64,000 bases of DNA from Microcystis wesenbergii NRERC-220 (GTDB taxonomy: Bacteria; Cyanobacteriota; Cyanobacteriia; Cyanobacteriales; Microcystaceae), in NCBI RefSeq assembly GCF_032027425.1, contig NZ_JAVSJA010000001.1, forward strand, positions 2,059,501 through 2,123,500, written 5' to 3'. The notes below the pieces were generated by a model, which was given only the letters and a program-made list of their open reading frames with translations, ran no database searches and was not told the origin of the DNA. Position 1 is the first letter of the stretch. The number at the start of each line of letters is the position of its first letter. Made by a program: the position numbers and the translations under genes. Shown here piece by piece: positions 36,237 to 39,689 of this stretch.

Positions 36237-36737
36237 ATGGCTACTGACGAATTACAAAATCTCGATAAAAATATTCAACGCTTAAAAGAACAATTAGCTG
36301 GAATCCGCGATGCGTGGACAGGTGCGCGTCCAGAAGATAAAGTTCTTTTGCAGCAACGCATAAACGATAAGCGCATAGAAATTAAAGAATTGGAACGAGA
36401 AAAATGGGATTTAATCGCCAGCGAGAGTCAAGAAGCATCTTTTCCTGATGCCGAGGTAATGGTAGCAGAAATTGTCACAGAAGTGACGGCAATTACCACA
36501 GAACCGCCCCCTGAACTTGCTTCTGCACAAATCTTAGAATCATTAAACCAAATTCTGGCTAAACTCAATCAACCAGAGCGATCGGCAGCAGCCAAATTAA
36601 AGGCAGCTATATCTACTATACCTCCTTTTGTTTCCCTGACCTACGAAGCGGAATTAGATACTGAGTCAACTTTTAAGCGTTATTTTCCCACATTTAATCG
36701 TGTGATTGCAGGGGTGAAAAATCGTCTAAAAAAGTAA
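36237..36737 (+). CDS. Small coiled-coil protein at the head of an NLR-like cassette
   Basis: A 166-aa protein. Residues about 5-60 form a charged coiled coil (LDKNIQRLKEQLAGIRDAWT and onwards). Residues about 90-115 are a Leu/Ile-rich helix, and the end (IPPFVSLTYEAELDTES to GVKNRLKK) is a conserved-looking basic domain. The frame stops at TAA directly after A AAA AAG (36728-36734). The -1 frame continues for 32 residues to a motif found also at the start of the NB-ARC protein at 37434. Function unknown; it may be an effector or adaptor for that protein. Confidence 0.7.
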   Translation: MATDELQNLDKNIQRLKEQLAGIRDAWTGARPEDKVLLQQRINDKRIEIKELEREKWDLIASESQEASFPDAEVMVAEIVTEVTAITTEPPPELASAQILESLNQILAKLNQPERSAAAKLKAAISTIPPFVSLTYEAELDTESTFKRYFPTFNRVIAGVKNRLKK

Positions 36738-36832
36738 GTATTCCCTCTAAAAGCTTGGCTGGTATCGAGCGGACAATTAATATTAGTCAATCGGGAATTG
36801 GTAATACACAGAACAACATCTTTAATCTGTGA
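36738..36832 (+). other. Minus-one frame extension ending in a shared Q/N/G motif
   Basis: In the -1 frame the codons after the slippery run read VSIPSKSLAGIERT and then INISQSGIGNTQNNIFNL before TGA (36830-36832). The final 18 residues match the N-terminus of the NB-ARC-TPR protein (INIEQDGTDNNQNNTFNL) at 12 of 18 positions. AGGGG at 36710-36714 lies 13 nt before the heptamer, as in dnaX. It could be produced by programmed frameshifting or slippage, or be the relic of a 1-nt indel. Confidence 0.65.
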
Positions 36833-36893
36833 AAACCAAGCCTAGTAAATGTTATCATTGAAAATAGTTATTATCAAAGACAAGAGGTAATTT

Positions 36894-37091
36894 ATGTCAG
36901 AATTGCAAGCGGAAGCGTTAAAACCAATATTAAAAGAGTTACTCTATGAGTTATTAATACAAGAAAAGGATTTACTAAAAGAGTTAATTTATGAAGTGCT
37001 GGAAGATACGGCTATGGCTAGGGCAATTCAAGAGGGAAAAGATAGTAACAATGTCAGTCGTGATCAAATTTTGACTCTGTTAAAAGAATAA
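36894..37091 (+). CDS. Antitoxin of a RelE/ParE-type pair (putative)
   Basis: A 65-aa acidic, Leu- and Glu-rich helical protein (MSELQAEALKPILKELLYEL and a C-terminal EGKDSNNVSRDQILTLLKE). It lies 3 bp upstream of the RelE-like toxin gene. Sequence alone does not fix the antitoxin family, but order, size and charge are those of a type II antitoxin. It would neutralise the toxin and repress the shared promoter. Start ATG at 36894 with AAGAGGT upstream. Confidence 0.68.
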   Translation: MSELQAEALKPILKELLYELLIQEKDLLKELIYEVLEDTAMARAIQEGKDSNNVSRDQILTLLKE

Positions 37092-37094
37092 GAG

Positions 37095-37361
37095 ATGAAT
37101 ATTGAATTTCGTAAAAGCTTTGAGACAGATCTACGCAATCTCAAAGATGGTAAAATTAAGCGACAAATTCAGGCAATTATTGAGGAGATAGAATCAGCCA
37201 AAAGTTTAACAGAGTTGCGTAATGTCAAAGCGATTCAAGGGTATCGAGGATTTTATCGCATTCGGATTGGGGATTATCGTCTTGGTTTGTATTTAGAGCA
37301 AGATACTGTCGCCTTGGTTCGTCTTCTACACCGAAAGGAAATGTATCGTTATTTTCCTTAA
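37095..37361 (+). CDS. RelE/ParE family toxin
   Basis: An 88-aa basic protein with the RelE fold pattern: MNIEFRKSFETDLRNLKDGK, then IEEIESAKSLTELRNVKAI, a GYRGFYRIRIGDYRLGLYL core, and VRLLHRKEMYRYFP at the end. The Arg-rich strands and the final Tyr residues are typical of RelE/HigB mRNA interferases that cut mRNA in the ribosome. It follows its likely antitoxin by 3 bp. The pair sits inside the cassette, between the small coiled-coil gene and the NB-ARC gene. Confidence 0.87.
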   Translation: MNIEFRKSFETDLRNLKDGKIKRQIQAIIEEIESAKSLTELRNVKAIQGYRGFYRIRIGDYRLGLYLEQDTVALVRLLHRKEMYRYFP

Positions 37362-37433
37362 AAACCTCATTAATATTAATTTTATATTAGATTTATTTTG
37401 AGCAAAGATAATTATTTTTAGAGAGAATTAAAA

Positions 37434-39689
37434 ATGAAAATCAATATTGAGCAAGATGGAACTGATAACAATCAAAATAATACTTTTAATCTGAATATTC
37501 CCGAACCAAAAGAACGTCAAGCTGTCCCTAGTAATGTGGGCAAAAGTACGGTTAATTTTGTCGGGAGGGAAGATGAGTTAACCTTAATTCATCAGCAATT
37601 GCAAACAGAACAAGGGGTGATTGTTTGTGCAGTAGAAGGGTTAGGGGGAATAGGAAAAACCGCTTTAGCTTTGGAATATGCGAAACGATACCAACAGGAA
37701 TACGCGGCACAATATTGGTTATCCTTGCGACTATCGGGTTTAGCAGAAGAAATAGTTAAATTAGCTGGTCCCTATCTATCTTTACCAGAAATATTGAAAA
37801 AAGAATCTTTAGAAAAACAAGTGTACTGGTATTGGCAAAATTGGCTACCTCAGCAGGGAAAATTATTATTAATTCTCGATGATGTCCCCAATATCGACCG
37901 AATTCCCGATCGAATATTACCAAAAGATTCTAGGATTAAGATATTAGTCACCACTAGGGAAAGGTGTCTTAGTACGGAATTTGAGTCTATAGCTTTAGAT
38001 GTTTTACCATTAGATAAATGTGTAGAGTTATTAACCAAAATTGTTGGTACTGCTAAAGTTGAGAAAGAAAAAGCTTTAGTAGAACAGATTTGTCACGAAA
38101 TTTTAGGACGCTTAACCTTAGCAGTGGAGTTGGTGGGGGAATATTTAGCGAAAAATCGTCATTTAAAGTTTAGCCATTTACGCGATAAATTAAATTTAGC
38201 TCATACTGCTTTAACCAAAGAAAGAAACCACAAAGATTATGGACATTTAGGGGTAGCAGCCGCAATTAAAATCAGTTGGGATGATTTAAGTTCTGCTGGT
38301 CAAAAAGTGGCAATGCTGTTGAGTTTATTCGCACCGGTGGCTATTGCTTGGACGTTGCTAGAAGATACGGCAAAATCCACAGAAATTACCGAAAGTGAAC
38401 TGGAAGAAGCGCGGGGACAATTGGATAATTCTCATCTGATGCAACCCGTGGATGAGGACTATTCTTTTTATCGGATTCATCCCCTCGTGAGAGAATTTTT
38501 TCAAGAGCAATTACAGGAAATTCCTGAGAAAAATTCTCTTTATCGATGCGCTTTTGTGGAAACTTTGTTAACCATTGCCGAAAATATCCCGCAAACCCCC
38601 ACAAGGGAGATTATTGCAGCGGTAACTCCCGCAATTCCCCATCTGCAACTTGTCAGTCAAACCATGTTAGATGATATTCCCAACCCAGAAGATAATTTAA
38701 TTTTGGTGTTTCTTGGGTTAGCTTTGTTTTATAAGGGACAGGGAGAATATGATTTAGCAGCAGTTCCCTTCACAAAATGTTGTGAAGAAATCCAATCTCG
38801 CTTAGGAGAAAACCATCCAATTGTTGCTGACATTTTCAATAATTTAGCAGTGTTATATGAATTCCAAGGCAGATACGCAGAAGGAGAACTGTTGTGTAAG
38901 CGCTCCCTTTCTATGATAGAACAGCTATTAGGAGAAAACCATCCCATTGTTGCTACCAGTGTCAATAATTTAGCACTATTATATCAATGCCAAGGCAGAT
39001 ACACAGAAGCAGAATCGTTGTATAAGCGCTCCCTTTCTCTGATAGAACAGCTATTAGAAGAAAACAATCTCTATTTTGCTAACATTCTCAATAATTTAGC
39101 AGAATTATACCTCAGCCAAGGCAGATACATAGAAGCGGAACCCTTATGTAAGAGATGCCTTTCTCTGATAGAACAGCTATTAGGAGAAAACCATCCCCAT
39201 GTTGCTACCAGTCTCAATAATTTAGCAGGATTATACCACTCCCAAGGCAGATACGCAGAAGCGGAACCCTTGTATAAGCGATCCCTTTCTCTGATAGAAC
39301 AGCTATTAGGAGAAAACCATCCCAATGTTGCTACCAGTCTCAATAATTTAGCAGAATTATACCAATGCCAAGGCAGACACGCAGAAGCGGAACCCTTGTA
39401 TAAGCGCTCCCTTTCTCTGCGGGAACAGCGATTAGGAGAAAACCATCCTAGTGTTGCTAAAAGTCTCAATAATTTAGCGGTATTATACGAATCCCAAGGC
39501 AGATACGCAGAAGCGGAACCGTTGTATGTGAGAGCTATTGCTATTTATCAAGAAAGATTAGGAGAAAATCATCCCGATACCCAAAAAGTAAGGCAAAATT
39601 TTATGATTCTGTTGTCGCGATTATCCGATGAAGAATTACAGCAAAGATTCCCCGATGAGATAGTTAATCTCTTAAAAAGTATCAGGTAG
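37434..39689 (+). CDS. NB-ARC-TPR protein (NLR-like) with an N-terminal Q/N/G motif
   Basis: A 751-aa STAND NTPase. Residues 1-22 are a Q/N/G-rich motif shared with the upstream gene. The NB-ARC module follows: FVGREDEL, Walker A GLGGIGKT (69-76), Walker B LLLILDD (144-150), VTTRE (172-176), a GLPL-like LGRLTLAVEL, and an MHD-like IHPLV near residue 349. The C-terminal half is a run of 42-residue kinesin-light-chain-type TPRs (LGENHP.VATSLNNLA.LY..QGRYAEAEPLYKRSLSL). Proteins of this type sense a ligand through the repeats, oligomerise and trigger an effector. No effector domain is fused, which points to a partner in trans. Confidence 0.9.
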   Translation: MKINIEQDGTDNNQNNTFNLNIPEPKERQAVPSNVGKSTVNFVGREDELTLIHQQLQTEQGVIVCAVEGLGGIGKTALALEYAKRYQQEYAAQYWLSLRLSGLAEEIVKLAGPYLSLPEILKKESLEKQVYWYWQNWLPQQGKLLLILDDVPNIDRIPDRILPKDSRIKILVTTRERCLSTEFESIALDVLPLDKCVELLTKIVGTAKVEKEKALVEQICHEILGRLTLAVELVGEYLAKNRHLKFSHLRDKLNLAHTALTKERNHKDYGHLGVAAAIKISWDDLSSAGQKVAMLLSLFAPVAIAWTLLEDTAKSTEITESELEEARGQLDNSHLMQPVDEDYSFYRIHPLVREFFQEQLQEIPEKNSLYRCAFVETLLTIAENIPQTPTREIIAAVTPAIPHLQLVSQTMLDDIPNPEDNLILVFLGLALFYKGQGEYDLAAVPFTKCCEEIQSRLGENHPIVADIFNNLAVLYEFQGRYAEGELLCKRSLSMIEQLLGENHPIVATSVNNLALLYQCQGRYTEAESLYKRSLSLIEQLLEENNLYFANILNNLAELYLSQGRYIEAEPLCKRCLSLIEQLLGENHPHVATSLNNLAGLYHSQGRYAEAEPLYKRSLSLIEQLLGENHPNVATSLNNLAELYQCQGRHAEAEPLYKRSLSLREQRLGENHPSVAKSLNNLAVLYESQGRYAEAEPLYVRAIAIYQERLGENHPDTQKVRQNFMILLSRLSDEELQQRFPDEIVNLLKSIR
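38802..39600 (+). repeat. 126-bp tandem DNA repeats coding the TPR array
   Basis: TTAGGAGAAAACCATCC or a variant recurs exactly every 126 bp at 38802, 38928, 39054, 39180, 39306, 39432 and 39558. Copies are near-identical in DNA, not only in protein. The unit at 39054 is the most diverged. This indicates recent copying by recombination and probable copy-number variation between strains. Confidence 0.88.

Follow-up and report, generated by a model that had tools for sequence, protein, structure and literature searches.

Our analysis concerned a window of 64,000 nucleotides from Microcystis wesenbergii NRERC-220 (the window being the whole stretch of DNA analysed, with positions counted from its first base), and within it a small gene of the forward strand and the receptor gene, on the same strand, that follows it. 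The small gene (36237–36737) encodes in its own, or 0, frame a 166-aa product belonging to a family without a Pfam name, which we term the adaptor. Its 3′ end, GTG AAA AAT CGT CTA AAA AAG TAA, contains an in-phase slippery heptamer, A-AAA-AAG (36728–36734), which abuts the 0-frame stop codon TAA (36735–36737), and 13 nt 5′ of the heptamer lies AGGGG (36710–36714), a Shine-Dalgarno (SD)-like candidate stimulator that conforms to a published SD rule. Translation of the −1 frame from the heptamer gives a short extension, KKVSIPSKSLAGIERTINISQSGIGNTQNNIFNL (36728–36832), i.e., a slip by −1 at this site would yield KK-VSIPSKSLAGIERT-INISQSGIGNTQNNIFNL and then terminate at TGA (36830–36832). The last part of that product, INISQSGIGNTQNNIFNL (36776–36829), is one copy of a Q/N/G motif whose other copy, INIEQDGTDNNQNNTFNL (37440–37493), lies at the N-terminus of the downstream 751-aa NB-ARC-TPR receptor, an NLR (37434–39689; Pfam places NB-ARC at residues 46–283). 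It is probable, in our estimation, that the upstream gene is an adaptor gene with a programmed −1 frameshift, that its shifted product in the window is tagged with the motif, and that this product joins the NLR non-covalently.

The nearest named records to the adaptor protein are those of Microcystis viridis, M. wesenbergii and M. aeruginosa, and the protein matched no Pfam family at E ≤ 0.01. An AlphaFold2 model (mean pLDDT 82.5) was all-helical, with a long N-terminal hairpin and further helices. Protein searches located the gene in 12 of the 50 genomes of the host's taxonomic family, and with a ten-member profile the gene family was detected in 40 of 388 genomes and 29 of 159 genera of the class. 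Fifty-eight adaptor loci were fetched and 57 scored, L062 being left out because its contig ends before the stop. The heptamer, as A-AAA-AAR, was in phase within the last 15 codons of 43 of the 57 copies (36 genomes, 23 genera), and 39 of those 43 had a −1 frame free of stops over 100 codons or more, as against a single one for the +1 frame. Three of the 14 copies lacking the heptamer also had a long −1 frame; two of the three carry G-GGA-AAG in phase, and the third, L076, overlaps by an ATGA start. Five copies from one branch of the family (L052, L058, L068, L104 and L106) served as an internal control, having neither the heptamer nor a long −1 frame. The 0 frame led into a receptor in none of the 57 copies, its stop always falling within 53 codons of the matched adaptor. 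A broken reading frame might also reflect the decay or phase variation of a formerly continuous gene, and certain copies are clearly broken, L061 by an internal stop and the NLR frame of genome G025 by its end after only 99 codons, but the absence of any copy in the in-frame state and the recurrence of the same break with the same heptamer in 23 genera make this explanation hardly credible.

What the −1 frame adds to the adaptor differs from locus to locus. A Pfam scan covered 30 of the 42 −1 products of at least 100 codons and found domains above cut-off in 27 of them: 14 with NB-ARC (10 of these with TPR), three with nSTAND4, two each with nSTAND1, NACHT and GUN4, and one each with AAA_35, CHASE2, VMAP-C and CHAT plus GUN4; the products of L059, L061 and L089 had no Pfam domain above cut-off. 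Five more products, taken from named records, added three nSTAND4, one AAA_35 and one NB-ARC-TPR. A second adaptor copy in the window's own genome has a −1 frame that leads into GUN4, and in G049, from another genus, one copy has NB-ARC-TPR in its −1 frame and a second has CHAT plus GUN4. On a plasmid of Crinalium epipsammum PCC 9333 (L240 3230–5565), RefSeq lists the adaptor and a "NACHT domain-containing protein" as two genes with a gap between them and annotates no frameshift; here the heptamer is in phase, the receptor frame is open upstream as far as the heptamer, and the −1 frame terminates at the NACHT stop (5565).

The same −1 products bear on translational coupling, i.e., termination at the adaptor stop followed by re-initiation in the −1 frame, which would give two proteins and leave the heptamer incidental. 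In many of the −1 frames a possible start (ATG, GTG or TTG) does occur within 25 codons; in L075 an ATG is located at the stop itself, and the heptamer-less L076 has its ATGA overlap. However, in six of the 27 domain-bearing products (L060, by a few residues only, L063, L080, L100, L101 and L103) the first possible start after the heptamer falls inside the domain, and re-initiation therefore could not yield the whole domain. Coupling also sits badly with the 43 in-phase heptamers, which keep their phase although the residue preceding Lys-Lys varies among copies, and with a covarying hairpin that lies at a narrow distance past many of the sites. Taken with these points, coupling seems to us very unlikely.

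That hairpin was scored at 37 non-redundant sites, which remained of 45 once those with 80% or more likeness had been removed. A strong hairpin (score ≥ 20) started 3–8 nt 3′ of the heptamer at 16 of the 37, compared with a background of 0.6% on average (maximum 5.9%) over 36 downstream offsets in the same genes and 0.8% (maximum 8.1%) over 20 upstream offsets, and thresholds of 16, 18, 20 and 22 gave 17, 16, 16 and 9 sites. Across eight sites, both partners had changed in 7 of the 10 stem pairs, and pairing was kept in 87.5% of cells; of 500 shuffles, none reached the pairing or the covariation score, seven reached the double-change count and three the pair-type count, and every measure dropped when the stem partner was shifted by 1–3 columns. 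A covariance model built from the eight sites produced 26 matches up to E = 1 in 67 loci (369,709 bases), 24 of them exactly at a heptamer; 16 of the 24 lay outside the training set (three being close kin of training sites), nine of them with E ≤ 0.01. Under stricter filters, the model found nine matches at E ≤ 0.01 in the 388 whole genomes, all in adaptor genes and seven of them training sites.

The SD-like element was scored by the rule in PMC4066793, which is satisfied at 24% of in-phase upstream positions as background. When the window, whose site is almost that of L097, was added to the 37 sites, a hairpin or an SD-like site was present at 30 of the 38. Among the 34 sites without a run of nine A, 13 had the hairpin only, 13 the SD-like site only, three both and five neither, i.e., the two elements tend toward mutual exclusion (Fisher p 0.0026). 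The window site is of the SD type and has no hairpin.

Runs of nine A mark another group of sites, namely L059, L065, L070 and L078 among the 38, and also L119, L123, L125 and L128. This group takes in all six nSTAND4 copies that Pfam identified (L065, L070, L078, L119, L123 and L125) and likewise L059 and the AAA_35 copy L128, and at such sites transcriptional slippage is conceivable, runs above seven having been called slippage-prone (PMC3711429). Slippage of the polymerase on the A run would yield the same −1 product as a ribosomal slip. Against its being the general mechanism, 33 of the 38 sites, the window among them, have six or seven A, the window's own run of six being short of that length, and the hairpins and SD-like elements are characteristic of a shift by the ribosome. 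Transcriptional slippage as an alternative to ribosomal frameshifting is accordingly one that we hold to be unlikely.

Several observations weigh against a programmed frameshift, in the family or in the window. The adaptor sites are related by descent, and the counts given above are thus not independent; four of the 43 heptamer copies (L056, L066, which meets a contig end, L093 and L097) have short −1 frames. The eight covariation sites were chosen for stems in one register and include two close kin, seven of the 16 covariance matches outside the training set had E values of 0.08–0.6, and, with the heptamer lying inside the model, matches at heptamers were favoured. The SD rule is weak for any single site because of its 24% background. 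Third-position bias in the stretch upstream of the first −1 start was modest (12, 17 and 31 substitutions by codon position in close pairs, i.e., 31 of 60 at third positions), the pairs overlapped, and the bias was absent from L081/L082 (5, 6, 3). In the window's genome AAAAAAGTAR is not enriched (71 occurrences versus 98 of the reversed pattern), and the window's −1 extension is only 34 codons long and has no hairpin, its support coming from the heptamer, the SD-like site and the motif. In favour of a programmed frameshift, of the 68 AAAAAAGTAR sites examined among the 69 outside the two adaptor genes of this genome, none links a 0-frame open reading frame of at least 100 aa to a −1 frame of at least 100 codons. 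With 34 codons the window site would itself fail that test; the case for it is made by its relatives and by the motif.

The motif pair itself was already recognised in the first-pass annotation of this DNA, which placed matching copies at the N-terminus of the NLR and in the −1 frame of the gene upstream; its positions, frames and count of 12 identical residues out of 18 were all correct. What it missed was that the upstream copy can be reached solely through a −1 slip at A-AAA-AAG, and that the site of this slip is what the gene family conserves, most members continuing from it directly into a receptor or signalling domain. The copies share 37 of 54 bases. Scored with the NLR motif, the adaptor-side copy reached 61, and no other of the 52,632 stop-free 18-mers in a six-frame translation of the window exceeded 26. 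A recent duplication, named in that annotation as grounds for giving up its proposal, does not fit, since the 17 base differences fall mostly at third positions (2, 6 and 9 by codon position). Its likening of the locus to the neighbouring-gene pairs of bacterial amyloid signalling sequences (BASS) is partly supported, the same motif standing on both sides. In addition, the two genes are not adjacent, a RelB-like antitoxin (36894–37091; Pfam PF25734) and a ParE/RelE-type toxin (37095–37361; Pfam PF05016) lying between them on the forward strand.

Both toxin-antitoxin genes lie within a 775-bp segment (36750–37524) that genome comparison found in the window and in G025 and not in G024 or G034; among 12 Microcystis genomes, only the window's own (G000) and G025 have the whole of it. 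Relative to G024, the segment holds the adaptor-side motif and its stop, the toxin-antitoxin pair, and the ATG and motif of the NLR. The same adaptor is present in G024, G034 and G030, where its −1 frame continues directly into an NB-ARC-TPR protein that is 96–97% identical to the window NLR over 391 aligned residues. G025 (L097) has a −1 extension near-identical to that of the window. Beyond G025, the toxin-antitoxin stretch (36894–37361) has only weaker, partial DNA matches (66–70%) in G029 and elsewhere in G025, among the 12 genomes.

The same adaptor and NLR are linked by the −1 frame in some species and matched by motif in others, and this is the strongest support in the analysis for the idea that the matched motifs would stand in for covalent fusion in the window Microcystis. 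The nearest relatives of the window NLR in the set compared are the motif-bearing NLRs of G192 and G227 (58%) and G261 (46%), and frameshift-joined NLRs from outside Microcystis have at most 34% identity to it. Because the window NLR is closest to motif-bearing NLRs, two histories present themselves: either the motif form would be ancestral, and G024, G034 and G030 switched to fusion, or recombination built the present form. The motif could, alternatively, be a repeated or mobile sequence tag with no part in assembly, and its position near both ends of a 775-bp segment that carries a toxin-antitoxin pair is what a mobile tag would predict. But the copies differ at 17 of 54 bases, and five further genomes are two-ended with other small partners, and we consider a mere tag rather unlikely.

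These further genomes emerged when a three-row profile of the motif was run against the 388 cyanobacterial genomes, giving 21 matches in 12 genomes at E ≤ 0.05. Locus-by-locus reading found that in seven of the 12 (G000, G025, G165, G192, G227, G261 and G348) one copy starts an NB-ARC-like sequence and another ends a small frame nearby, which bears out the expectation of NLR/neighbour pairs elsewhere. The seven include G025, whose NLR frame is the broken one mentioned above, G261, with a 39-codon fragment, and G348, with its two motif ends about 5 kb apart. G402 has both ends, the second being a 96-codon frame not demonstrated as an NLR, and G145, G206, G305 and G405 have a single motif copy within the stretch examined. 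The first-pass annotation had also reckoned with a motif spread widely through proteins without NLR neighbours; no spread away from such loci was seen in the 388 genomes, although five of the motif-bearing genomes are one-ended, or have an unproven second end, in the stretch examined.

The partners of the motif are varied. In Phormidium tenue (G261, L061) the motif is likewise in the −1 frame of the adaptor, that copy having an internal stop. The small partners in G165, G192, G402 and G405 have a hydrophobic helix at their start and, by eye, resemble BELL proteins, those of G192, G165 and G405 having no Pfam match above cut-off, and one partner in G348 resembles HNH nucleases below the Pfam cut-off. 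A second short recurring motif (e.g., NIGVLAQSGSSVTINNLNV, EKIGVVAQSGSVVNIGTLNV) was seen in linkers preceding the Q/N/G motif or NB-ARC (L057 980–1300, and the small proteins of L133, L137 and L139). In L234 (1562–2437) a region that is BELL-like by eye, and for which no convincing Pfam match was found, precedes the adaptor in frame, the adaptor itself being followed by NB-ARC in the −1 frame. Neighbouring proteins in L227 (373–1059 and 1409–4441) share the N-terminal hairpin of the adaptor and a different motif (VIQGNGNQVSVNYYGG, VILGDQNTVNIHYHG), and in the second of them hairpin and motif are in frame with a Pfam-scanned NB-ARC. The N-terminal hairpin occurs alone in L228, L229, L230 and L232, in frame with regions that by eye are WD40-like, CHAT-like or AAA_35-like.

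Comparison of the sequences establishes the heptamers and their phase, the long −1 frames, the flanking signals and the motif pairs, and suggests how the system might work. Ribosomes that do not slip would release the free 166-aa helical adaptor, and those that slip on A-AAA-AAG, at whatever rate, would produce an adaptor extended by the −1-encoded sequence. In most family members a single start would thus supply, from one mRNA, both free adaptors and adaptor-tagged receptors or signalling domains. In the window, the −1 product would be the adaptor tagged with the short Q/N/G motif, the NLR would be translated from its own ATG and present the matching motif N-terminally, and the two motifs would probably bind one another non-covalently, by analogy with BASS pairs. 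Tagged receptors, once triggered, may oligomerise and gather free adaptors around them, possibly as part of an immune response. A further proposal, to which we give somewhat less than an even chance, is that the interchangeable signals (hairpin, SD-like site, run of nine A) set the ratio of free to tagged adaptor, with few receptors nucleating many adaptors, and that amyloid-like motifs are an alternative to the covalent link, Microcystis carrying both states.

Conserved frameshifting that joins one adaptor to nine or more kinds of receptor or signalling domain named in Pfam would amount to a new way of building bacterial NLR-type systems and of setting the ratios of their components. The annotation of some cyanobacterial receptors would then lack the N-terminus, Crinalium being an example, and the two Microcystis states of one locus would allow a direct test of whether amyloid-type motifs replace covalent fusion. 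The best-known bacterial cases of programmed frameshifting are those of mobile elements, dnaX and prfB (PMC3711429), and we found no paper on frameshifting in cyanobacterial NLR, STAND or adaptor genes in the open-licence PMC literature, which is weak evidence of novelty. The terms NB-ARC, GUN4, NLR and Microcystis do not occur in the first 300,000 of the 475,107 characters of PMC5009743.

Of the known systems, the GeneTack clusters (Antonov et al. 2013, PMC3711429) offer a general precedent, in that conserved heptamers were found there in pairs annotated as two open reading frames that fuse on a shift, and the adaptor family would likewise be joined through a heptamer and is, in Crinalium, annotated as two genes. 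The clusters named in section 24 of that paper (magnesium chelatase, DUF111, DUF772, spore germination protein and three more) are, however, other families. Its main text mentions none of NB-ARC, GUN4, caspase, Microcystis and Nostoc, and an earlier listing of part of the adaptor family among the 146 clusters is possible. In NTP-dependent conflict systems (Kaur et al. 2020, PMC7159879), effector-associated domains and EACC1 resemble the adaptor, since there too a constant small component is combined with NTPase and effector domains of several kinds, GUN4 and VMAP among them. EACC1, though, is described with a single conserved membrane helix and as a separate gene; the adaptor, all-helical in its model, would be joined by the −1 frame. 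The word "frameshift" does not appear in PMC7159879 or PMC8195603.

BASS systems have a short motif at the N-terminus of the NLR and at the C-terminus of the product of a neighbouring gene (PMC7889193), and this is where the motif lies in the window, the adaptor-side copy solely in the −1 frame. That arrangement supports a BASS-like reading of the predicted pair, as do the two-ended loci, but the upstream protein matched no known effector, and the "effector" of the first-pass annotation is thus only putative; the partner here is a helical adaptor that is not recognisably BELL, and its motif sits behind a frameshift. The likeness to dnaX of Escherichia coli lies in the shift itself, for which an A-AAA-AAG heptamer is stimulated by an upstream SD-like site and a downstream hairpin (PMC3711429), and the adaptor family has the same heptamer with SD-like sites or hairpins as candidate stimulators. 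Of the two E. coli dnaX products, the shifted one is the shorter (PMC4066793), whereas in the adaptor family the predicted shifted product is the longer, and the domain that it gains varies by locus.

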